From: Halosolutus amylolyticus
GTDB lineage: Archaea > Halobacteriota > Halobacteria > Halobacteriales > Natrialbaceae
Reading direction: 5' to 3'
Assembly: GCF_023566055.1 (NCBI RefSeq)
Contig: NZ_JALIQP010000003.1
Location: forward strand, 310,001 to 374,000
Length of the DNA: 64,000 nucleotides
The notes under the pieces were generated by a model. The model worked only from the letters and a program-made list of their open reading frames with translations. It did no database searches and had not been told where the DNA came from. The number at the start of each line of letters is the position of its first letter. The first letter of the stretch is position 1. This document shows positions 1 to 47,221 of the stretch, in pieces. A program made the translations under genes and the position numbers.

Positions 1-2415
1 AAACTGCGCGGCGACCGCGCGGTGACGACGAAGTGCGTCCTCGAGACGCCGTCGGAGACGATCGAGGGAGCACGCGACGTCCGCGGAGAGGTCACCAGAC
101 TCCTGCGGATGGACGCCGACGCGTTCGTCAACTGCGCGTACGTCCGGCAGGGCGAGGTGAACAAGCTCATCCACGCCTCGCCGAGCGATCGCCAGGACAT
201 GATCGACGACCTGCTCCAGCTCGGCGCGCTCGAGGAGTATCGCGAACGGGCGAGCGACGCCCGACTGGGCGTCGACGACGTGCTTCGCGAGGTCCGTGGC
301 GAACTGAAGAACCTCGAGGAGCAGATCGAACAGAAGGAAGCGAAGGACCTCCACGAGCGGCTGAACGGACTGGAGTCCCGACGCCAGGAGACGATCGACG
401 AGATCGACCACTACGAGCGCCAGCGCGAGCAGGCCGAGTCGACGCTCGAAGCCGCGACGGACGTCCTCGAGCGCCACGAGGAGACGCGCGAGGAGATCGA
501 GACGCTCGACGAGGAAATCGAGGCGCTCCGATCGAAGATTTCCGAGACCGAGAGCGAACGCGAGGAGGCCAGCGCCGAGATTCGGGACCTCCAGGACCGG
601 CGGGAGGAACTCGAAGCCGAGCGCGACGAACTGCTGGCCGAACTCGACCTCGACGAGACGGGCGAGGAGGCGGTCGAGAGCCGGATCGACGACCTCGAGG
701 CGCGGGACGACGACCTCCGGGACGACCTCGAGGACGTCCGGGTGACGATCACCGAGAAAAGCGGGACCGTCGAGCGGCTTCGCGAGGAGGCTGCGGACCT
801 CGACTCGCAGGCCGACGAGGCCCGCGAGGAGGCGGACGCGCTCGAGAGCCAACTCGACGACGACGAGGCGACGATCGCCGATCGGGAGGAGAAACTGGAA
901 GAACTCGACGAGGCGATCGACTCGGCGCGCGAGAAATTCGAGGACGCGCCGATCGCGTTCGGCGAGGCGGCCGATCACGTCGCGGAACTCGAGCGCGAAC
1001 GCGAGGGGGTGACCGACGAGACCGGCGACGTGACGGCCGACGTCAGGGCCGCCGAGAACGCGATCGAGGAGGCCGAAGCGCTGCTCGAGGAGGGGAACTG
1101 TCCCACCTGCGGTCAGCCGGTCGCGGACTCGCCACACGTCGACGTGCTGGACGAGAAACGCGAGGAACTCGCGACGCTCGAAGAGCGGCGTGCGGAACTC
1201 GAGGCCGAACGCGACGACATCGACGAGCGACTCGATCGCGCCGAGGCGTTGCGCGAGGCCGAACGGGAGGTCGAGCGACTCGAGACGAAGCGCGACGACG
1301 TCGACCGACTGCTCTCGGAGAAACGCGAGACGGTCGCGGAGCGCCGTGAGAAGTGCGATCAACTGCGCGAGTCGGCCGCGGAATACGAGCGCGAGGCCGA
1401 GACGAAACGCGCCGAAGCGGACGACCTCGAGGACGACGTCGCCGCCGCGCGGGAGGAACTCGGCGAGATCAACACCGAGCGCGGGGCGCTCAAAGCGACG
1501 CTGGAGACGCTCGAACGGATCGCCGAGATCGACGGCGAGCGGGCCGACCTCGCGACCCGGATCGAGTCCCTGCGGGACCGCCGATCGGACTGGGAGACGA
1601 TGAACGACGAGCGCCGGGAGACCCTCTCGGCGAAACGCGAGCGCAAGCGCGACCTCGAGTCGGAGTTCGACGAGGACCGGGTCGAGGAAGCACGGACCGA
1701 CCGACAGAACGCAGCGAACTACATCGAGAAGGTCGACGAGAAACTCGCCGAACTCGAGGAGCGACGCGACGAACTCGGGAACGCGATCGGTGCGGTCGAG
1801 AACGAGATCGAGGAACTCGAGGCCCGACGCGAGGAGCTAGAGACGGTCGAAAAACGGTGTGCGAAGCTGGAGTCGCTCTACGAGGAGGCCGAGACGCTCC
1901 AGGGAACGTACGGCGAACTCCGATCGGAGCTGCGCCAGCAGAACGTCGAGACGCTCGAACGGCTGTTGAACGAGACGTTCGATCTCGTCTACCAGAACGA
2001 CTCCTACGCGGGGATCGACCTGGACGGCGACTACCGGCTGACGGTCTACCAGAAGGACGGCGAACCCCTCGAACCGGAACAGCTGTCGGGCGGCGAACGG
2101 GCGCTGTTCAACCTGAGTCTGCGGTGTGCGATCTATCGCTTGCTCGCCGAAGGCGTCGAGGGGACGGCCCCGATGCCGCCGCTCATCCTGGACGAGCCGA
2201 CCGTCTTCCTCGACTCCGGACACGTCACGCAGCTCGTCTCGCTGGTCGAATCGATGCGGGATCTGGGCGTCGAACAGATCGTCGTCGTCAGTCACGACGA
2301 AGAACTCGTCGGCGCGGCGGACGCGCTGGTCCAGGTCGAAAAAGACGCGACGTCGAATCGCTCACGGCTCGATCACGGCGAACCGACGGAGTCGGCCCTG
2401 CTCGCGTCCGACTAG
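1..2415 (+). CDS. rad50: DNA double-strand break repair ATPase Rad50 (5' end missing)
   Basis: This is the ATPase and coiled-coil subunit of the Mre11-Rad50 complex, which binds and tethers DNA ends. The frame is open from base 1, so about 90 N-terminal residues with the Walker A loop lie outside the window; 804 codons are visible. A very long Glu/Arg-rich coiled coil is broken in the middle by the zinc hook CPTCG (Cys codons at 1099 and 1108). The C-terminal ATPase lobe carries the signature LSGGERALFNLSLR (from about 2083), Walker B LILDEPTVFLD (about 2185) and the switch VVVSHDE. The stop codon overlaps the stop of the convergent gene downstream. From memory, haloarchaea place mre11 just upstream and the following small genes and polB downstream, and the order here agrees with that. 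Confidence 0.97.
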   Translation, partial: KLRGDRAVTTKCVLETPSETIEGARDVRGEVTRLLRMDADAFVNCAYVRQGEVNKLIHASPSDRQDMIDDLLQLGALEEYRERASDARLGVDDVLREVRGELKNLEEQIEQKEAKDLHERLNGLESRRQETIDEIDHYERQREQAESTLEAATDVLERHEETREEIETLDEEIEALRSKISETESEREEASAEIRDLQDRREELEAERDELLAELDLDETGEEAVESRIDDLEARDDDLRDDLEDVRVTITEKSGTVERLREEAADLDSQADEAREEADALESQLDDDEATIADREEKLEELDEAIDSAREKFEDAPIAFGEAADHVAELEREREGVTDETGDVTADVRAAENAIEEAEALLEEGNCPTCGQPVADSPHVDVLDEKREELATLEERRAELEAERDDIDERLDRAEALREAEREVERLETKRDDVDRLLSEKRETVAERREKCDQLRESAAEYEREAETKRAEADDLEDDVAAAREELGEINTERGALKATLETLERIAEIDGERADLATRIESLRDRRSDWETMNDERRETLSAKRERKRDLESEFDEDRVEEARTDRQNAANYIEKVDEKLAELEERRDELGNAIGAVENEIEELEARREELETVEKRCAKLESLYEEAETLQGTYGELRSELRQQNVETLERLLNETFDLVYQNDSYAGIDLDGDYRLTVYQKDGEPLEPEQLSGGERALFNLSLRCAIYRLLAEGVEGTAPMPPLILDEPTVFLDSGHVTQLVSLVESMRDLGVEQIVVVSHDEELVGAADALVQVEKDATSNRSRLDHGEPTESALLASD

Positions 2416-3816: not shown

Positions 3817-3921
3817 CTGATTGTATGCTAGGTGTTACCACATTATATGTCTTGTTGCCCTCACAAAATCACGTCGTACCTGCGGCGTCGGCGAGCCGCG
3901 GTTGCGGGACCGGAGTGCCGG

Positions 3922-3930
3922 GGTTTTTAT
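3922..3930 (+). promoter_or_regulatory. TATA box of polB
   Basis: GTTTTTAT sits 25-33 nt before the ATG at 3955, the usual spacing for a leaderless haloarchaeal transcript. It decides the polB start: an in-frame extension upstream (to 3832) would run through this promoter and lacks family-like sequence. Confidence 0.6.
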
Positions 3931-3954
3931 TCGCCGACTTCGAACCTCGGGACC

Positions 3955-6900
3955 ATGACTGAGGCGGGCCAGGCCGGACTCGCGGAGTTTGCGGAGGCGT
4001 CCGACGACCGGCCGGACGAAGAGGCAGTTGCCGTCGCCGGCAACGGCGGAACCGACGCCGCGGACGTGATCGACGTCGTCGAGGAGACCCTCCCGGAACC
4101 GGACGGCGATCTCGAACTCGCGGTCATGCAGGTAGATTACACGGTCGCCGGCTACGGGGACGAAGAACGGCCGATCATGCACGTCTTCGGACGGACCCCC
4201 GGCGGGGAACTGGAACACGTCCAGGTCGTCGGCTTCCGGCCGTACTTCTACGCGCCGACGGAGACGCTCGATCGGCCGCCGGAGGAGGAGTACGATCGAC
4301 TCACGGGCAGCCGCGAGGTCGACAGGAACGGCGAGCCATACGAGAGCATCCGCGGGGAGAAACTGACCAAGATCTTCGGCCAGACGCCCCGGGACGTCGG
4401 GCAGGTGCGCGACGACTTCGAGCACTACGAGGCGGACATCCTCTTCCCGAACCGGTTCCTCATCGACAAGGACGTCCGCAGCGGCATTCGCGTGCCGGAA
4501 CGTCGCGCGGAGGACGACTCCCTCGTCGTCCCCCACGAGGAAGTCGAGGCCACGGCCGTCGACGCCCAGCCCCGCGTCCAGACGTTCGACATCGAGGTCG
4601 ACGACCGATCGGGGTTCCCGGAGGACGGCGAGGAGCCGATCGTCTGTCTCACCAGCCACGACTCCTACCGCGACGAGTACGTCATGTGGCTCTACGAGGC
4701 CCCGATCGGCGACGGGGCGATTCCGGACGCCATCGAGGAGTACGACCCGATCGAGGGACCGCTCGATCACGAGATCCGAAGCTTCGAGGAAGAAGAAGCG
4801 ATGCTCGAGGCGTTCATCGAGTACATCGAACGGACCGATCCCGACGTCCTCACCGGGTGGAACTTCGAGGACTTCGACGCGCCGTACCTCCTCGATCGAC
4901 TCGAGGAACTCCAGGGCGGCCACGAGTACGACCTCTCGATCGATCGGCTCTCGCGGGTCGACGAGGTCTGGCGGAGCAACTGGGGCGGCCCGGACGTCAA
5001 GGGGCGGGTCGTCTTCGACCTGCTCTACGGCTACCAGCGGATGGTCTTCTCCGAACTGGATTCGTACCGGCTGGACGCCGTCGGCGAGGCGGAACTGGGC
5101 GTCGGCAAGGAGCGCTACGCCGGCGACATCGGCGACCTCTGGGAGGACGACCCGACGCAACTGCTCGCGTACAACCTGCGCGACGTCGAGATCTGCGTCG
5201 AACTCGATCGCCAGCAGGAGATCATCCCGTTCTGGGACGAGGTGCGATCGTTCGTCGGGTGTAAACTCGAGGACGCGCCGACGCCGGGGGACGCGGTCGA
5301 CATGTACGTCCTCCACGAGGCCCACGGCCGGTTCGCGCTTCCATCGAAGGGGCAGCAGGAGGCCGGCGAGGAGTACGAGGGCGGCGCGGTGTTCGAGCCG
5401 ATCACGGGCGTCAAGGAGAACGTCACCGTGCTCGACCTGAAGTCGCTGTACCCGATGTGCATGACGACGATCAACGCCTCGCCCGAGACGAAGGTCGATC
5501 CCGAGGAGTACGACGGAGAGACCTACGTCGCGCCGATGGACTCCGGCGGGATCCACTTCCGCAAGGAACCCGACGGCGTCATGCGCGAGATGATCACGGA
5601 ACTGCTCGCCGAACGCGAGGAGAAGAAAGAACTGCGAAACGAGTACGAACCCGGAACCCCCGAGTACGAACAGTACGATCGCCAGCAAGGGGCGGTGAAG
5701 GTTATTATGAATTCTCTTTACGGAGTGTCGGGTTGGGAACAATTCCGCTTATATGACAAAGAAGCCGCATCCGCGATCACAGCTACTGGGCGCGAGGTGA
5801 TCGAATTTACGGAGACTGCCGCAAACGAACTCGACTATCAGGTAGCGTATGGCGACAGCGTTACTGGCGATCGGCCGATAGTCGTCCGCGATCCCGACGG
5901 ATACGTTCGTATCACACCGATCGAAACGCTTTTCGACCGGGCGACTGGGACGACTGATTCGGCGGTCTTGATCACTGCCGACGGTGGCCCCGTCGCGTCT
6001 ACCGCTCTCGGGAAGGAACGACGTGAACTCGACGGGTGGGAAGCACTCTCGCTATCTGACGCGGGAACGTCGGAGTGGCAACCGATCGAACAGGTGATTC
6101 GCCACGAGACGGATGCGCCGGTCGTCACCCTCCAGCACAAGTTCGGGGAATCGACGACGACTCGCGATCACTCGTTCGTTGTCGAAGAGGATGGGAACTA
6201 CGTGGAGGCTGCACCAGCCGACGTCGACGAACCGCTCCGTATCCCGGGTCTTCCGGACGTAGATCCCGTCGAAACCATCGACGTATACGAGGCGTTGGCT
6301 GGATACGAGCGAACGTACGAGGACGGACGAAGCGTCGGGGCGGAACGCGCTACGACGAAGAAGAAACGCGTTCACGCGGACGAGGAATACGTTTGGTTCG
6401 GACACCAACACCACGGCGACATCGAGTCGACGATCAAGATCAAACGCTACATCGACCTCAACTCCGAGGATGGGAGAGCGCTCGTCCGATTGCTGGCAGC
6501 GTACGTGACAGAAGGGAGTGCGTCGACGGTCGAAACAGCTGACGCGAAATTTGGCGCGTCGATCGCCGAATCACGTCCCAAGTGGCTGCGGCAGATCAAG
6601 GCGGATTACGATCGACTCTTCGAAGGGGCAACGGCAACGATAATCGCATCAGACAGCCGTGACGAACGGACTATCGAATCGACATCACTGGACGATGGGC
6701 CAGCGATTGTGTACAATGACCTAACCCAGAAACTCCAGATGATGAACGAACTGTCGGCAGTGTTCTTCCGAGAGTTCGCAGGCCAAACGTCCCACGGAAA
6801 ACGGATCCCGTCGTTCGTCTTCCACCTCTCCGACGAACTTCAAGAACTCTTCCTGAATATTCTCATCGAAGGCGACGGATCTCGTGAGTTCCCGCGGTAC

Positions 6901-7998
6901 TCCGACGAATACTGTGAACGGAATTTCGACTACGAGACGGTGAGTCGCGAACTCGCTGCCGGCCTATCCACGCTGCTCACCCAACGCGACCGAAAACACT
7001 CGTTGAAGTATCGCAGCGAAAAGGGGAGCTATACGATCCGAACGTGTGATTACTATCGATCCGGCCGCGATCCGGTGATTCGCGAAACAGAGCACGACGG
7101 GTACGTATACGACCTCAGTGTTGCCGAAAACGAGAACTTCGTCGACGCGGTCGGCGGTGTCGTTCTCCACAATACCGACTCGGTCATGCTCGAACTCGGT
7201 CCCGACGTCTCGAAAGACGAGGCGCTCGAGCAGTCGTTCGAGATCGAGGAGTACCTCAACGATCGGTACGACGACTTCGCCCGCGAAGACCTGAACGCCG
7301 ACGAACACCGCTTCCAGATCGAGTTCGAGAAACTCTACCGGCGGTTCTTCCAGGCGGGCACGAAGAAACGCTACGCCGGCCACATCGTCTGGAAGGAGGG
7401 CAAAGACGTCGACGACGTCGACATCACCGGCTTCGAGTACAAGCGATCGGACATCGCACCGATCACCAAGGAGGTCCAGCACCGGGTCATCGAGATGATC
7501 GTCAAGGAGGGCGACGTCGAGGGCGCGAAGGAGTACGTCAACGGGGTCATCGAGGACGTGCTCGCGGGCGAGGTTTCCCTCGAAGAAATCGGCATTCCCG
7601 GCGGCATCGGCAAGCGACTGGATAATTACGACACCGACACGGCGCAGGTCCGGGGAGCGAAGTACGCGAACCTGTTACTCGGGACCAACTTCCAGCGCGG
7701 GAGCAAGCCCAAGCGACTCTACCTCGATCGGATCGACCCCGCGTTCTTCCGCCGGATGGAGGCCGAGGAAGGGTTCGATCCCCAGCGCGATCCCCTCTAC
7801 GGCGCGTTCAAGCGCGACCCCGACGTCATCTGCTTCGAGTACGACGACCAGATCCCCGACGAGTTCGAGGTCGACTACGAGAAGATGCTCGAGAAGACGC
7901 TGAAGGGACCGATCGAACGCATCCTCGAGGCGCTGGACGTCTCCTGGGAGGAAGTCAAGAGTGGCCAGGAGCAGACTGGGCTCGACAATTTCATGTAA
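3955..7998 (+). CDS. polB: Replicative DNA polymerase B, interrupted by an intein
   Basis: This is a family B DNA polymerase precursor of 1347 residues; removal of a 439-residue intein would leave about 908 residues, a normal length. The exonuclease motif Exo I (FDIEVD, D212/E214) and a YNLRDVEICVEL segment are present. Polymerase motif A is DLKSLYPMCMTT (about 494-505), motif B is KVIMNSLYGVSGW (about 581), and motif C YGD/TDS is split by the intein. KKRYAGHIVW follows. The extreme C-terminus QTGLDNFM looks like a PCNA-interacting peptide. The inteins often found at motifs A and B of haloarchaeal PolB are absent, so those sites are empty. The extein stretch just before the intein has unusual A/T-rich codons (see findings). 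Confidence 0.97.
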   Translation: MTEAGQAGLAEFAEASDDRPDEEAVAVAGNGGTDAADVIDVVEETLPEPDGDLELAVMQVDYTVAGYGDEERPIMHVFGRTPGGELEHVQVVGFRPYFYAPTETLDRPPEEEYDRLTGSREVDRNGEPYESIRGEKLTKIFGQTPRDVGQVRDDFEHYEADILFPNRFLIDKDVRSGIRVPERRAEDDSLVVPHEEVEATAVDAQPRVQTFDIEVDDRSGFPEDGEEPIVCLTSHDSYRDEYVMWLYEAPIGDGAIPDAIEEYDPIEGPLDHEIRSFEEEEAMLEAFIEYIERTDPDVLTGWNFEDFDAPYLLDRLEELQGGHEYDLSIDRLSRVDEVWRSNWGGPDVKGRVVFDLLYGYQRMVFSELDSYRLDAVGEAELGVGKERYAGDIGDLWEDDPTQLLAYNLRDVEICVELDRQQEIIPFWDEVRSFVGCKLEDAPTPGDAVDMYVLHEAHGRFALPSKGQQEAGEEYEGGAVFEPITGVKENVTVLDLKSLYPMCMTTINASPETKVDPEEYDGETYVAPMDSGGIHFRKEPDGVMREMITELLAEREEKKELRNEYEPGTPEYEQYDRQQGAVKVIMNSLYGVSGWEQFRLYDKEAASAITATGREVIEFTETAANELDYQVAYGDSVTGDRPIVVRDPDGYVRITPIETLFDRATGTTDSAVLITADGGPVASTALGKERRELDGWEALSLSDAGTSEWQPIEQVIRHETDAPVVTLQHKFGESTTTRDHSFVVEEDGNYVEAAPADVDEPLRIPGLPDVDPVETIDVYEALAGYERTYEDGRSVGAERATTKKKRVHADEEYVWFGHQHHGDIESTIKIKRYIDLNSEDGRALVRLLAAYVTEGSASTVETADAKFGASIAESRPKWLRQIKADYDRLFEGATATIIASDSRDERTIESTSLDDGPAIVYNDLTQKLQMMNELSAVFFREFAGQTSHGKRIPSFVFHLSDELQELFLNILIEGDGSREFPRYSDEYCERNFDYETVSRELAAGLSTLLTQRDRKHSLKYRSEKGSYTIRTCDYYRSGRDPVIRETEHDGYVYDLSVAENENFVDAVGGVVLHNTDSVMLELGPDVSKDEALEQSFEIEEYLNDRYDDFAREDLNADEHRFQIEFEKLYRRFFQAGTKKRYAGHIVWKEGKDVDDVDITGFEYKRSDIAPITKEVQHRVIEMIVKEGDVEGAKEYVNGVIEDVLAGEVSLEEIGIPGGIGKRLDNYDTDTAQVRGAKYANLLLGTNFQRGSKPKRLYLDRIDPAFFRRMEAEEGFDPQRDPLYGAFKRDPDVICFEYDDQIPDEFEVDYEKMLEKTLKGPIERILEALDVSWEEVKSGQEQTGLDNFM
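5857..7173 (+). mobile_element. PolB intein with LAGLIDADG homing endonuclease (pol-c site)
   Basis: In-frame intein of 439 residues (precursor residues 635-1073) between YGD and TDS of polymerase motif C. It begins with Ser1 (SVTGDRPIVVRDPDG), has a block-B-like VTLQHKFGESTTTRDHSFVV, and ends with block F/G YVYDLSVAENENFVDAVGG then VVLHN, followed by Thr+1 of the extein. Ser1, the terminal His-Asn and Thr+1 are all splicing-competent residues. Two LAGLIDADG motifs are visible, LLAAYVTEGS (about 846-855) and LNILIEGDGS (about 966-977), each keeping an acidic residue before the Gly, so the endonuclease may be active. Base composition is visibly more A/T-rich than the extein. The site is known in archaeal PolB as pol-c. 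Confidence 0.95.
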
Positions 7999-40591: not shown

Positions 40592-43500
40592 TCACTCGAC
40601 GATCCCGTCGTCGGCACAGCCGAGCGACGTGTGCGTACAGTCCCGGCAGTGGAGCCCACACTGGGCGGTCCCGAACTCGCTCTCGTCCGCAGCGCGGAGA
40701 TCCGCCGTCAACTGCGGGCGCATGTCCAGCAACTGCGCGGCAGAAAACAGCTGGACGTCGGGGCCGTTCGGCCCGACGTAGACGTAGCCGGCCGTTCGGA
40801 TCGGGGTCGAGAACACGTCCCTGGCGGCGAGGAGGTACAGCAGCAACTGGTAGCTCTCACCGAGTTCCTTGCGCTGGCTCCCCGTCTTGTAGTCGAGGAT
40901 CACGACCTCGCCGTCGTCGGTCCGCGCAATCGCGTCGATCGAGCCGACGATCGGGCCGCCGACGCTCGCGTCGTAGTCGGCGAGTTCGAACGGGACCTCC
41001 GCGCCGAGGGTCTCCCAGTCGGACGCCGGGGTTGCGAAGTAGCGATCGACGCAGGCTCTGGCCGCCGGAACGGCGTCCTCGAGGCCGTGGAGCCGCCCGA
41101 GTCGATCGCAGGCGGCCCGCCACTCGTCGGGCCCGGTGTAGTCCCGCCAGAACGCCTCTTCGGCGACGAAGTGGAACAGGGTCCCGATCGCGATGGGTGA
41201 GGCGCCGGTCGCGTCGGACGAATCCGGGAGGCCGTACGCGAGCGGGTCCGCGAACGCATCGACGACGTGGTCGAGCACGTGGCGACGCTCGCACTGGCCG
41301 ACCGTCTCGACGGAACTGTGACTGTGACGGCGCTCCAGTTCCCGGCCGACCCCGCCCGTGAGGTCGGTCCGGTAGCCGACCGTCTCGGGATCGATCGTCG
41401 AGAGTGTCCCGGCGCGGAGTTGCCGGGCCAACTCCAGCGTCTCGTCGATCGCGTCCTCGAGCGCGATGGGCGTCTCGAAGTACTGGAGCGAGACCGATTC
41501 GCGGTCCAGCCCGGCGTCGATCTCGTCGGTCAGATCCGTCCGGAACCGATCGTCGAGTTGCTCGTAGCTGTCGGTGATCCGATCCCAGACGTCCATGTGC
41601 GGGCCGCCGACGCTCCACTCGACGCCGGCGAGGTACTCGTCGAGCTGGCTCGCCGGCACGTCGGGCTCGTCCGGGTCGGTGCCGAAGAGGAACAGCCGCT
41701 CCTTCGCTCGCGTCAGGCCCACGTGGAGCACCCGCCATTCCTCGGGCACCTCGCCCACCGAGTGGTCGGTCCACAGCGAGGTGGCCCGATCGGCGTCGAC
41801 GAGGTCCGCGAGCGCCGAAAACGAGTGGGTCGACCGGGGGTAGGGATTGGGGAACGTCCCGGGCGGGAGCGGCGGCCAGTGGTCGGCGCTCAGGAACGGG
41901 AGCATCACGACGTCGAACTCCAGGCCCTTGGCCTGGAAGATCGTCATGACGTCGATCTTGTCGTCCGATCCCGCCGCCGTCTCCAGGTCGCCGCCCGATT
42001 CCCGGCCGCTGATCTCGCCCTGCAGTTCGAGATACGAGACGAACTCCTCGGTGAGTCGCGACTGCGTGACACGACCCTCGTCGAACGACTCCATCAGCCG
42101 TTCGATCGCCGCGAGTTCCCGCCGCTCGCCGGCCGTCAGGAACCACTCGAACCGCGTCTCCCGCTTGAGTTCGGCGTAGAGCTCCGAGATCGACAGCCGG
42201 TGGCGCTTCGATCGCAGCGTCTCGACGTCCGAACGGGCCCGCTCGAGGCGCTCGGGTGCGTCGAACTCATTCGCCGGCCGATCGGAAAGCGCGCGATAGG
42301 TGCTCGTCTCCGCGCGGTTGAGCCGGTCCAGGTCGGCCGCGGGAACGCGGTAGAACATCGTCAGGACCCGGTTCAGGCTGACGTCGTCGTGTGGATCGAC
42401 GAGCACCCGGAGGTACGCGAGGACGGTCTCGATCCCCGGGGACGTCTCGCCGCCCATGTCGTGGGCCAGTTCGTAGGGGAGGCAAGCCTCGTCGAGCTGG
42501 GCGGCGACCAGGTCGGCCTGCCGTTTGGTCCGGACGAGCACCGCGACGTCCCCCAGGTCGGCCGCCTCGATCGCGGGGAGGGTTCCCTTGACGAGCTTCG
42601 AGATGGCCGTGCTGACCTGGGCCGCCTGCTCTTCTTCCTCGTCGGCCGCGTCGACCGTGACGACGGCGTTCTCGACGTCGTCCTTGAACGCCGACAGCCC
42701 CTGGCTGTCGGCCGGCAGGTCGGCGACGAGGTCGAGGATCGCGTCCGGCGACCGGAAGTTCAGGTCCAGGGAGTAGCGTTCGAACCCCTCGAGTTCGTCG
42801 CTGATCCGGTCCATGTTCTCGGGGTGGGCACCCCGCCACTCGTAGATCGCCTGGTCCTGGTCGCCGATGACGAACAGCTCCGTCTCGGCGCCCAGCGCGG
42901 CGATCAGCTCCAGTTGCGCGTCGTCGGTGTCCTGGAACTCGTCACAGAGGATCAGGTCCCACTGGTCGACGATCCCCGATCGGACGGTTTCGTCCGAAAG
43001 CAACGTCGTGGCCCACCGGATGAGGTCGTCGTAATCGAGCGCCTGCTGGAACGCGCCCTCGCCGGCGAGTTCCCGCTCGTAGGCCCGGTAGCCGGGCAGG
43101 AAGTCGTGGGTCTGCTGGAGCATCTCGACGAACGCGACGAGTCGCCCGATCGGCGTCTGGTAGGTATCGGAGAAGAAGGTGGGCACGTTCCCGGCGAGGA
43201 GGGCCTGCGGGACGAACCGTTCGTACCAGCTCGAGGCCCCGTTCAGGAGTAACGCCTCGAGTTCGTCGACGAGGTCGAGCATCGTCCCGAGGTAGTCGGC
43301 TACCTCCGCCTCGACGGGCGTGCCGGATTCGAGTTGTCCTCGCTTGTGCCGGAGGACCGTCCGGTACTTCTGGAAGCGATCCTGGAACGCGAGCGGGTCG
43401 TCCGTGAGGGTCGGGTTCCGATCGGTGTCGAACAGCCGCCGGCCGAGCGCGTGCAGTTCCCGGGCCAGCGTCGACAGCCTGGCGATCGTCCCGGTTTCGG

Positions 43501-44071
43501 GGAGCGACGAGGCGACCTCGTCGGGGGTGACGCCCGCCCGTTTGAGGTCCTCGATGAACTCGATGAGGTCGCGCTCGACCCGGTCGGCCCCGGTCCGGGC
43601 GTCGATCGGTTCGACGAACCGGTACTCGAGGTCGTCGACGAGCGACTGGACGATCGCCCGCCGATCGTCGTCCGTGACGAGGTCGAACTCCGGCGCGAGG
43701 TCGAAGTAGTAGGCGTACTCGCCGAGCAACTGCTGGCAGAACGCGTGGTAGGTGTACGCGTCGACGTCGTACCCCCGCCCGTCCGCGAGCAGGTCGCCGA
43801 GGTCGTCCTTGATGGCGTGGGCGGCCTCGTTCGCGAACGTCAACACGAGGACGCGCTCGGGGGCGACGCCGCGGTTCTCGATCGCGTCCTCGATCCGCCA
43901 GGCCATCGTCTGGGTCTTGCCGGTACCCGCGCCGGCGCTGACGATGAGCCGATCGTCGGTCGCGGCGACGACGTCGCGCTGGGTGCCTCGCGGGCGGAGC
44001 GTCGCCGGTTCGTCTGCTGTCGCCGCGCCGTCGTCCGTCTCGGGTTCGTCCGTCCAGTCTCCGTCGGTCAT
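40592..44071 (-). CDS. UvrD/AddA-like helicase with C-terminal RecB-type Fe-S nuclease domain
   Basis: 1159 residues. SF1A helicase: Q motif region RGTQRDVVAA, Walker A VSAGAGTGKTQ (47-53), Walker B LILCDEFQDTDDAQ (about 375), motif III-like VIGDQDQAIYEWRGAHPENM and motif VI VLHVGLTRAKERLFLF. A PD-(D/E)XK nuclease follows, with VGSIDAIARTDDGEVVILDY then KTG (about 1050-1062) and QLLLYLLAARD. The last residues form a Cys cluster C-x3-C-x2-C-x6-C, with a further Cys at VETVGQCERRHV, as expected for a [4Fe-4S] nuclease. Start at 44071; the upstream frame lacks family sequence. Last gene of the three-gene unit, 26 nt after its partner. An AddA/RecB-like DNA end-processing enzyme is the best reading. 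Confidence 0.92.
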   Translation of the reverse strand: MTDGDWTDEPETDDGAATADEPATLRPRGTQRDVVAATDDRLIVSAGAGTGKTQTMAWRIEDAIENRGVAPERVLVLTFANEAAHAIKDDLGDLLADGRGYDVDAYTYHAFCQQLLGEYAYYFDLAPEFDLVTDDDRRAIVQSLVDDLEYRFVEPIDARTGADRVERDLIEFIEDLKRAGVTPDEVASSLPETGTIARLSTLARELHALGRRLFDTDRNPTLTDDPLAFQDRFQKYRTVLRHKRGQLESGTPVEAEVADYLGTMLDLVDELEALLLNGASSWYERFVPQALLAGNVPTFFSDTYQTPIGRLVAFVEMLQQTHDFLPGYRAYERELAGEGAFQQALDYDDLIRWATTLLSDETVRSGIVDQWDLILCDEFQDTDDAQLELIAALGAETELFVIGDQDQAIYEWRGAHPENMDRISDELEGFERYSLDLNFRSPDAILDLVADLPADSQGLSAFKDDVENAVVTVDAADEEEEQAAQVSTAISKLVKGTLPAIEAADLGDVAVLVRTKRQADLVAAQLDEACLPYELAHDMGGETSPGIETVLAYLRVLVDPHDDVSLNRVLTMFYRVPAADLDRLNRAETSTYRALSDRPANEFDAPERLERARSDVETLRSKRHRLSISELYAELKRETRFEWFLTAGERRELAAIERLMESFDEGRVTQSRLTEEFVSYLELQGEISGRESGGDLETAAGSDDKIDVMTIFQAKGLEFDVVMLPFLSADHWPPLPPGTFPNPYPRSTHSFSALADLVDADRATSLWTDHSVGEVPEEWRVLHVGLTRAKERLFLFGTDPDEPDVPASQLDEYLAGVEWSVGGPHMDVWDRITDSYEQLDDRFRTDLTDEIDAGLDRESVSLQYFETPIALEDAIDETLELARQLRAGTLSTIDPETVGYRTDLTGGVGRELERRHSHSSVETVGQCERRHVLDHVVDAFADPLAYGLPDSSDATGASPIAIGTLFHFVAEEAFWRDYTGPDEWRAACDRLGRLHGLEDAVPAARACVDRYFATPASDWETLGAEVPFELADYDASVGGPIVGSIDAIARTDDGEVVILDYKTGSQRKELGESYQLLLYLLAARDVFSTPIRTAGYVYVGPNGPDVQLFSAAQLLDMRPQLTADLRAADESEFGTAQCGLHCRDCTHTSLGCADDGIVE

Positions 44072-44097
44072 GGTGTGTCCTCTCGATCGATCATCGC

Positions 44098-45030
44098 TCA
44101 GAACTGTACCTCCCGATTGAGGTGGTCCAGGCACATCGACTGGTACTTGCAGTTGCGACAGGACCGGGCGACGACCTCGTCCCACCGATCGCCCGGATTC
44201 CAGTCCCCGTCGACGATCCGTCGGGCCGCCTCGGCGAGGACGTCGTCACACGCGTCGTCGGCCTCCCAGCAGGCGTCCGTCGCGTCCCGTCGGTCCGAGA
44301 CTACCTCCGGTCCCGATCCGTCGTTCCCGTAGTCCGGGTAGGTTTCCTGCGCGATCGCGTAGTAGCGGTAGACGACGTTGTGAGCGTCGATCCCGTGGGC
44401 CGCCGCGACGGCGTGGATCGTCGCGTACGCCCGGAGGACGCTCCCGACCTGTCGGGGGTAAAACGCCTCGCAATCCCGGTACTGGGCGACCGGATCGCTG
44501 TAAGGGTTCTCCCAGACGACCCCGTCCAACGTCGTGACGAACCGGGCGATCTCGTACCGCTCGCCGTCGGTCCGGAAACAGTCGACCGGACAGGCGAACG
44601 CGTGCCCGTCCGCCGCGTACGTGTAGGTCTCGTCGATCGCGATCGCGCCCTCGGCGTGGGCCTGGCCGTACTCGGCGACGTAGTTCGCGACCGCGTTCCG
44701 GATGCTGGCCTCGTCGTACCGCCGGTGGTGGCCGGTCGCGCCTCCGGCCTCGGCCGTCGTCGCCTCCAGCCGGTCCTGCAGGCACGCCATGGCCGTCTCG
44801 CGAAGCGTCGCCTCGTCCGGGTCACACCGATCGAGCGTCGACGTGAGGACGGTCCTGTAGAGTTCGGTCCGCCGATCGATCGCGTCACGGGCCGTCCGCG
44901 TTCGAATCGTCTGGCGGTGTTCGTACTGGTACTGGCGGGGACAGCGGAGGTACGTCTCGACCTCGTCGAGCCCGATCGGGGCGTCCGCGGTCGCGTCCGG
45001 AGCCGCCGCAACATCTCGCTCACTCGCCAT
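44098..45030 (-). CDS. RecB/Cas4-like Fe-S protein with apparently lost nuclease residues
   Basis: 310 residues. An early Cys (VETYLRCPRQYQYEHRQT) and a C-terminal cluster SCRNCKYQSMCLDHL (C-x2-C-x5-C) give the four ligands of an AddB/Cas4-type [4Fe-4S] cluster. Where active nucleases have GxID...VxDYK, this protein has CPVDCFRTDGERYEIARFVT, without the Asp and Lys pair, so it is probably not a nuclease. It is 26 nt ahead of the helicase-nuclease gene and overlaps the preceding gene by 11 nt. Read with its upstream neighbour it looks like the C-terminal half of an AddB protein. Confidence 0.8.
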   Translation of the reverse strand: MASERDVAAAPDATADAPIGLDEVETYLRCPRQYQYEHRQTIRTRTARDAIDRRTELYRTVLTSTLDRCDPDEATLRETAMACLQDRLEATTAEAGGATGHHRRYDEASIRNAVANYVAEYGQAHAEGAIAIDETYTYAADGHAFACPVDCFRTDGERYEIARFVTTLDGVVWENPYSDPVAQYRDCEAFYPRQVGSVLRAYATIHAVAAAHGIDAHNVVYRYYAIAQETYPDYGNDGSGPEVVSDRRDATDACWEADDACDDVLAEAARRIVDGDWNPGDRWDEVVARSCRNCKYQSMCLDHLNREVQF

Positions 45031-47221
45031 CGCGACCCACCCCGGTTTCGTCCTCGCCGTCGCCGCGTCTCACCGCGTCCTCATCGCCGTCGCGTCCCAC
45101 GTCACCGAGCGCTCGGTCGATCTGTGCGTACACCGCCTGTTCGAACCGCGGATCGAGGTCGTCGGACTCCAGTAACGCGCCGATCGCCCCAAACGATCGC
45201 TCGGCCCGGCGGAGGTCGTACTCGGAGCCGGTGCTGGCCGCACCCTGGATCCGTTCGAGCTGGTCCCACGGTTCCGACAGCACCGCCGTGCTCGCCTCGC
45301 CGTGCGTGTAGATCCCCCGTTCGGCCGCCTCCGAGCCGACCTCGACGATCGGGACCTCCTCTCGCGCTTCCAGGTCCGTGAGGTAGCGCGAGCGGTGCTG
45401 ACGTTTCCCGAGTGCCGACTCGTTCGTCCGGGACGTACAGCAATAGAGGCGCTCGCTCGCGGCTCGCGCCCCGATCGCCAGCTGCCGTCTGGCGAGTTCG
45501 GCGTAGTAGGCGTCGTAGGGTTCGTCGATCGTCGCGGGTGCGGTCTCGAACGTGGCCCGCACGTCCGCGGCGGTGGGCGTCGTCACGCCGGGGTAGCCCG
45601 GCATCTCACGGACCCACTGGCGGGGAAACAGCTGGGTCAGCTGTCTCGATTCGGGATACTGACCCTCGTGGACGTTGACCAGGAACACGGCTTTCCGCCG
45701 ATCGTGTTTGCAGATCCGGACGGCGTCGACGAGCACGCCGTTCTCCTCGACGTCGACGGCCGTCGAGTACGTGTCCGAGGCGACGTAGGTGATCGCCCGT
45801 TCGAGCATCCGCAGGAACCCGTCCCAGGTGTCGGGCAGGGAGTCGGCCGTCTCGACGAACGCCGCGATGCCGAGTACCCGCTCGACGTGGTGAAACTGGG
45901 CACGCGCCTCGATCGGTTCGCTCTCCGCGATCCGGTGCTTGAGATCCGTCTCGAGGATCCAGCGGCCGAGTTGCTCGCGAACGCCGGACTCGTCGGCCAC
46001 GGCGGCGAGCGCGTCGTCGGGCCACCCGCCCAGCCGATCGGCGAGGATCTGGCCCGCGCGCTCGCGGGTCTCGCGATCGGTCGCGGCGTGGTACGCGGCG
46101 AGCGCGTGGAGTTCGCGCACCGCCCGGTCGCCACTCAGGCCGGTCACCGTCGCGGACGCGGTCGGGATCCCGGCCCGCTGGAGCACCCGCCGTGCCGTCC
46201 CGATCGGCCCGGTCGAGTCCTTGACGAGGACGGCCACGTCGTCGTAGGTCAGGTCGTGCTCCGTCCGGAGGTAGCCGATCTCGTTCGCGATCGTCGCGAG
46301 TTGATCGTAGAGGGTGTCCCCGGCGATCGTGTAGATCGGGTCCTCGAGGCCGTCCAGCACGGAATCGTCGTCGGTCGCGAGATAGCGCGCGACCGCGTCG
46401 GGCGTCCTGGAGCGGTCGCGACGCCGGCCTGCGGATTCGATCGCCATCGCGGACCCGAGATCCTCGACCGAGCCGGGTTCGTTCCAGACTCTCGCGATGC
46501 TCGCGTGCGCCTCGCCGAGACACACGAGTTCGGCGTTCTCGGCCAGCGCCGCGAGATAGTCGCGTTCGACCGCGCCGAACTCCTCGAAGCCGACGGCGAC
46601 GATCGCCTCGAACTCCCGCTCGATCGTCGATCGGACCGCGTCGTCCTCGAGCGCCGTGATGGCCCGCGAGAGCACGTCGGGGCGTTCGACCCACCCCTGC
46701 GACGCGAGCCAGTCGTGGAACCGATCGCGAACGGCCGCCAGTTCCGCGAGTAACTCCGTGTGCGGTCCCCGGTCCGGCCCCTTCGGGAGGTCGAAACCGC
46801 CGCCGTAGCTCGCGGCGAGCAGCACCCGACCGACGTCGCGGCCGAACGACTCGTGGCTCGCCGCGCCGGCGAAGTAGTCGTGCTCCCACGTGTGGCCCTC
46901 GAGGACCATCGAGAGGGTCTCGATCCGCTCCACGTCGGAGAGGATGCGCGCGTCCGGGGCGTGCTCGGTCACGACGCGCGACGCGTGTCGCGAGATGGTC
47001 TTGACGTTCGGCCGTCCGAGGAGGTCGAGTTCCTCGACGAGAGCCGCCGCGAAGTCCTCGATACCGGTTGGAAACCGCTTCAGGACCAGAATATCGGTCA
47101 CGTCGTAGCCGCGATCGGTGAGCAGTTCCTCGTACACCGTCGCCACCTGCGAGACCAGCGTGCCGCCTTCGAACGGGAGGATTCGCAGGTCGCCCCGTAG
47201 CGGGGCCGACTCAGCGGCCAT
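45020..47221 (-). CDS. SF1-helicase-like protein without a P-loop (AddB/RecC-like)
   Basis: 733 residues from the ATG at 47221; a GTG at 47248 is possible. The SF1 architecture is recognisable from FEAIVAVGFEEFGAVERDYL, GYLRTEHDLTYDDVAVLVKD (C-terminal domain entry), AVFLVNVHEGQYPESRQLTQ and QLAIGARAASERLYCCTSRT (motif VI). The N-terminus LRILPFEGGTLVSQVATVYE has no GxGKT, so it cannot bind ATP in the normal way. This is what RecC and many AddB proteins look like. A promoter-like TATTTAT lies near 47288-47298. First gene of the unit; acidic C-tail. Confidence 0.8.
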   Translation of the reverse strand: MAAESAPLRGDLRILPFEGGTLVSQVATVYEELLTDRGYDVTDILVLKRFPTGIEDFAAALVEELDLLGRPNVKTISRHASRVVTEHAPDARILSDVERIETLSMVLEGHTWEHDYFAGAASHESFGRDVGRVLLAASYGGGFDLPKGPDRGPHTELLAELAAVRDRFHDWLASQGWVERPDVLSRAITALEDDAVRSTIEREFEAIVAVGFEEFGAVERDYLAALAENAELVCLGEAHASIARVWNEPGSVEDLGSAMAIESAGRRRDRSRTPDAVARYLATDDDSVLDGLEDPIYTIAGDTLYDQLATIANEIGYLRTEHDLTYDDVAVLVKDSTGPIGTARRVLQRAGIPTASATVTGLSGDRAVRELHALAAYHAATDRETRERAGQILADRLGGWPDDALAAVADESGVREQLGRWILETDLKHRIAESEPIEARAQFHHVERVLGIAAFVETADSLPDTWDGFLRMLERAITYVASDTYSTAVDVEENGVLVDAVRICKHDRRKAVFLVNVHEGQYPESRQLTQLFPRQWVREMPGYPGVTTPTAADVRATFETAPATIDEPYDAYYAELARRQLAIGARAASERLYCCTSRTNESALGKRQHRSRYLTDLEAREEVPIVEVGSEAAERGIYTHGEASTAVLSEPWDQLERIQGAASTGSEYDLRRAERSFGAIGALLESDDLDPRFEQAVYAQIDRALGDVGRDGDEDAVRRGDGEDETGVGRDGE

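Follow-up and report, generated by a model that had tools for sequence, protein, structure and literature searches.

Three consecutive genes on the minus strand of a 64,000-nucleotide stretch of the Halosolutus amylolyticus genome (the window, meaning the whole stretch of DNA analysed) raise the question whether haloarchaea possess an AddAB/RecBC-like enzyme for DNA ends whose second subunit is encoded by two genes. The genes are designated C, N and A in the direction of transcription:

45020..47221, minus strand: C, a 733-residue SF1A pseudo-helicase resembling the helicase part of AddB/RecC; Walker A absent, motif II degenerate (VGFEEFGAVERDYL)
44098..45030, minus strand: N, a 310-residue PD-(D/E)XK domain of the Cas4/AddB type; four Fe-S-type cysteines (C30, C291, C294, C300); catalytic D-x-K, H and QxxxY lost
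40592..44071, minus strand: A, a 1159-residue UvrD/AddA-like SF1A helicase fused with an intact PD-(D/E)XK nuclease; four Fe-S-type cysteines

Architecture and conservation of the three-gene unit

Translation of the window ORFs bore out the head-to-tail arrangement given in the original prediction, with C and N overlapping by 11 nt and N and A separated by 26 nt; none of the three is a RecD-type gene. Comparison of the window with two congeners gave dN/dS values of 0.22-0.48 for C, N and A, and all three are under purifying selection. Since order and strand are also conserved across haloarchaea, they are not chance ORFs.

Complete units in a single order were found at 122 of the 126 loci examined. 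Two of the four incomplete loci are truncated by contig ends (L033 and L139), one carries a partial C only (L099) and in one A is split into two frames (L167). Neighbouring coding sequences usually share 4-8 nt (in most cases a spacing of -4 or -8 nt, with start codons picked by script), and the helicase-like and nuclease parts that AddB holds in one polypeptide are encoded by separate genes in all complete loci. Homologues of C were detected in 31 of 61 related genomes, mostly of the window's family, and N was detected in the same 31, which is the co-occurrence proposed as a check on the original prediction. In the sample of the phylum C was present in 31 haloarchaeal genomes, and the seven weak matches outside them were other SF1 proteins. 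The unit is patchy outside the Natrialbaceae and absent from many haloarchaea. Methanogen ORFs matched by the C profile were considered as fused C-N proteins; this was ruled out, all being P-loop-bearing UvrD-Cas4 or UvrD-type proteins except one AddB (G420). A pattern-based scan of viral contigs revealed no relatives, and a viral origin of the unit was dropped.

Analysis of C revealed no P-loop in the window copy or in 125 homologues (first 120 residues checked), and the window copy gave no match to Pfam/NCBIfam; on these grounds C was ruled out as a plain UvrD protein. The AlphaFold2 model of C (pLDDT 83, pTM 0.82) fell by Foldseek in the UvrD/AddB/AdnAB/RecB/RecC group. UvrD had the best E-value, while AddB was best by query-normalised TM-score (chain 3u4q_B, TMq 0.63, versus about 0.5 for UvrD). 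The overall rmsd of these alignments was high (6-9 A), so that they give the fold and not the detail. The description of the first gene as SF1-helicase-like and lacking a P-loop, as in RecC/AddB, agrees with these results.

In the window N the cysteines follow the pattern C30 and C291-x2-C294-x5-C300, as in the signature of the AddB nuclease part, where they would hold a putative Fe-S cluster. D150 is retained, but A-R-F-V stands in place of the D-x-K pair, and neither the H nor the QxxxY motif is left; the match to PDDEXK_1 is marginal (E 7e-4, below the cut-off). The four-Cys signature of AddB/Cas4 and the missing catalytic Asp/Lys pair had both been recognized in the original prediction. 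The AlphaFold2 model of N (pLDDT 88, pTM 0.86) matched the nuclease domains of RecE, AdnA and AddB modestly (best E 5e-4), AdnA of AdnAB (PDB 6ppu) being among the joint-best and AddB among the four matches with E <= 0.001. The structural comparison thus placed C nearest to AddB by TM-score and N in the PD-(D/E)XK fold. A pseudogene was ruled out for N, given dN/dS of 0.45-0.48 and the conserved cysteines.

The window A carries an intact Walker A, DEFQD, motifs III-VI, the nuclease H, D, DYK and QxxxY and four Cys, as had been claimed for the third gene, and strongly matches the UvrD helicase and PDDEXK_1 models of Pfam/NCBIfam. All A proteins, where aligned, retain the sampled positions of Walker A, motifs II-VI, the nuclease H, D, D, K, Q and Y and the four Cys. 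A therefore shows the intact SF1A motifs fused to an intact PD-(D/E)XK nuclease that characterize AddA, and equally the UvrD helicase fused to a four-Cys Cas4-like nuclease that characterizes the UvrD-Cas4 family.

Two classes of the unit and their genomic neighbours

Alignment of the N proteins revealed two classes of C-N-A unit, which are new here. In class I (n=45) the H, D, D-x-K and QxxxY motifs of N are all intact, whereas in class II (n=80), to which the window N belongs, the first Asp alone is retained; the four Cys are retained in nearly all N of both classes. The intact nuclease active site of AddB thus has its counterpart in class I and not in class II, the window included. The class label switches once on the FastTree phylogeny of C and the A tree yielded the same two clades; inactivation of the N active site therefore looks like one old event, its direction being our reading of a tree whose root is not fixed.

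Class II was retained mainly in Natrialbaceae genomes, and units of class I type are plasmid-borne in many records. A PLD gene and an Argonaute gene are often located directly upstream of class I C-N-A. A full-length Argonaute was present at 13 of 40 non-redundant class I loci versus 0 of 70 class II loci, and a full-length PLD gene at 17 of 40 versus 0 of 70 (Fisher tests; the values ignore phylogeny and the classes are clades). The original reader could not have seen that N has an intact active site in many relatives, nor that these adjoin Argonaute genes. No Argonaute, PLD or AAA/DUF4143 defence genes were found beside class II loci, whose neighbours are ordinary genes such as those of the CBS, NUDIX and alcohol dehydrogenase families.

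At one locus (L059:15674-17368) and further class I loci a protein of the AAA_14/DUF4143 type, matching the PADLOC candidate family PDC-S01, lies upstream in the opposite orientation. On a Natrinema zhouii plasmid (L216:3263-7508) an annotated DNA repair exonuclease and an AAA ATPase (Mre11/Rad50-like) are located directly upstream of a C-N-A with a predicted active N.

The pAgo-PLD pair of haloarchaea (APAP) is a shown defence system, and the report describing it notes a helicase-encoding gene near some ago-agaP operons, the sole remark on such a neighbour (PMC11442185); UvrD-type neighbours of pAgo were listed by Ryazansky et al. (PMC6299218). In many loci the Argonaute-PLD pair is immediately followed by class I C-N-A; the window locus is class II and no Argonaute was found in its genome. 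Both classes might serve primarily as an anti-virus or anti-plasmid nuclease and not in recombination or repair, class II being the genome-resident immune version; we consider this plausible but slightly disfavour it. The counts of Argonaute and PLD genes given above speak for it, uncorrected for phylogeny as they are, as do the order Piwi-PLD-C-N-A on a Salinigranum marinum plasmid, the unit of Haloplanus rubicundus that adjoins BREX-5 and restriction genes, and the assignment of UvrD-Cas4 fusions to defence (PMC5704561). On the contrary, class II loci lack adjoining defence genes and have ordinary neighbours, and the Natrinema unit adjoins genes of the Mre11/Rad50 type instead.

Relationship to AddAB, UvrD-Cas4, RecBC and AdnAB

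Profile alignment with hhalign showed that C covers AddB residues 18-579 (E 9e-16) and N residues 727-1062 (E 4e-8), and A matched the archaeal AddA profile over about 1000 columns (E 2e-76); reversed-sequence and unrelated-protein profile controls gave no match to C, N or A. However, UvrD-Cas4 profiles matched C, N and A equally well as the AddAB profiles (for A, E 1e-79 with the profile of stand-alone fusions), and the comparison was dropped as proof of descent from AddB. Since AddB, too, is strongly similar to UvrD-Cas4 (E 3e-28), the profile test of descent is weak, and "split AddB" denotes an architecture and not a proven descent.

The original prediction had read the unit as AddA plus an AddB cut in two. 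As an architecture this is well supported by the collinearity of C and N on AddB and by the TMq of C. As descent from AddAB it lacks such support: the UvrD-Cas4 matches are equal, the four-Cys set of A is absent in all but one of 19 archaeal AddAs inspected, and A branches outside the archaeal AddA clade in a motor tree obtained from a short search and having long branches. The same observations would fit an origin of both subunits from UvrD-Cas4-type fusions, of which A has the typical Cys set, with one copy decayed and split, so that the AddAB/RecBC architecture would have arisen independently, in the manner of AdnAB. With the limits of that tree, with some C members matching AddB-specific models, albeit weakly, and with the AddB to UvrD-Cas4 match leaving little test power, such an ancestry falls somewhat short of probable. 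It is compatible with one-enzyme AddAB/RecBC-like function.

Compared with AddAB (Bacillus subtilis type, PDB 3u4q; archaeal pairs L199-L212 and L214-L226), the unit shares one active UvrD-type motor-nuclease and a second subunit in which a helicase-like part precedes a nuclease-like one bearing Cys of the C-x2-C-x5-C type; in both, the motor gene is immediately preceded by that of the second subunit. The unit differs in that the second subunit is divided between two genes, in that class II N is catalytically dead as predicted from its motifs, and in the Cys set and tree position of A. Both the helicase and nuclease parts of RecC are dead. Absence of the helicase site from C and of the nuclease active site from class II N is a likeness to RecBC of the E. 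coli RecBCD, in which the only active nuclease is also on the motor subunit, whereas the haloarchaeal unit is without a RecD gene, RecC is one chain and N retains its Cys set. AdnAB of mycobacteria likewise has two subunits, each with a UvrD-like and a RecB-like nuclease part; AdnA, however, is a single chain, not split, with an active nuclease. The architecture of A is identical to that of the UvrD-Cas4 fusions (PMC5704561), and A is about equally close to these and to AddA, but has two near-invariant partners.

The original reader did not know such a layout from archaea. In so far as this implied that archaea lack AddAB-like enzymes, it is not supported in view of two-gene AddB-AddA operons, of which 13 pairs were found in methanogens (L199-L207, L209, L211, L212 and L094), and by unsplit AddB-AddA pairs on haloarchaeal plasmids (L214, L215, L223, L224, L225 and L226), some adjoining BREX or ParA genes, Halobacterium salinarum PHS3 being one example. 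AddAB-like enzymes in archaea are therefore not unique to the C-N-A unit. The P-loop is absent from these AddBs in the stretch tested, and most keep the nuclease motif and the Cys set. No published description of archaeal two-gene AddB-AddA operons was found in the literature covered, which excluded most subscription journals.

Possible role in DNA-end processing

Analysis of the host genome revealed an Mre11/SbcD-type match just left of the window (G000:C3:308409) and, at window positions 1-2415 on the plus strand and about 40 kb from C-N-A, a Rad50 gene whose CPTCGQ hook was read directly. The search with the Rad50 zinc-hook family gave zero matches and is uninformative, as it was silent even in Haloferax volcanii. 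Two pairs of HerA-type ATPase and NurA exceeded the Pfam cut-offs (G000:C1:612921-615725 and G000:C5:132857-136931). The NurA model also matches in Haloferax volcanii, although herA and nurA have been stated to be not apparent in halophiles (PMC12977600, PMC7776575). C-N-A thus adds to the other end-processing systems of the host, Mre11-Rad50 and HerA-NurA, and their presence, together with its patchy distribution, rules it out as a universal resection enzyme. Deletion of mre11-rad50 in Haloferax volcanii increased, and did not abolish, resistance and recombination (as reported in PMC10117719).

The host also carries a second, class I copy (L033, G000:C2:1-4266) with an intact A and an N cut at the contig edge beside a transposase-like sequence; no class I C was found in its genome. 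The window further encodes a family B DNA polymerase (3832-7998, plus strand), a 1388-residue ORF interrupted between YGDSV and HNTDSVM that appears to be intein-bearing.

C, N and A probably constitute one AddAB/RecBC-like DNA-end helicase-nuclease, a view in which the complex, its activity, the Fe-S occupancy and the biological role are all deduced. A would be the sole motor, a 3'-5' SF1A translocase, and in class II also the sole nuclease. By analogy with AddB/RecC, C may act as a catalytically dead helicase that holds, splits and steers the second strand, and N would be the separately encoded nuclease-fold domain of the second subunit. Because its catalytic residues are lost and the Fe-S-type Cys set is kept, class II N most likely has a structural role, clamping the duplex or end. 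Once loaded on a double-strand end, the machine would unwind the DNA and either degrade or resect it, thereby supplying RadA recombination or eliminating linear DNA of foreign origin. The one-motor, two-nuclease AddAB-like version would be class I, used in mobile defence that is often Argonaute-linked, and class II would be the one-motor, one-nuclease version; a RecBC-like single-nuclease enzyme is the mechanism that we favour for class II.

That there is no single enzyme, with A working alone as a UvrD-Cas4 helicase-nuclease and with C and N as accessory or regulatory products of the same operon, is unlikely, for although A is close to the stand-alone fusions, which in archaea occur alone or in non-conserved contexts (Hudaiberdiev et al., PMC5704561), C, N and A show near-invariant co-occurrence and order, the class splits of the C and A trees agree, and C and N are collinear with AddB.

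We tentatively propose, and with some doubt, that haloarchaea have a three-subunit enzyme of the AddAB/RecBC type which was assembled independently. The form with two nucleases would serve Argonaute-PLD immunity, either by opening up duplex targets or by producing guide fragments; the form with one, its second nuclease inactivated once, would be a resident end processor, a replay of the passage from AddAB to RecBC.

DNA-end processing in haloarchaea is unsettled and poorly understood, and C-N-A, a widely conserved AddAB-like unit, is a concrete and deletable candidate for it, with resection as its putative function. Through the unit an AddAB-like machine and Argonaute defence are linked within one gene cluster, and its two classes are sister systems that allow direct study of the loss of a nuclease.
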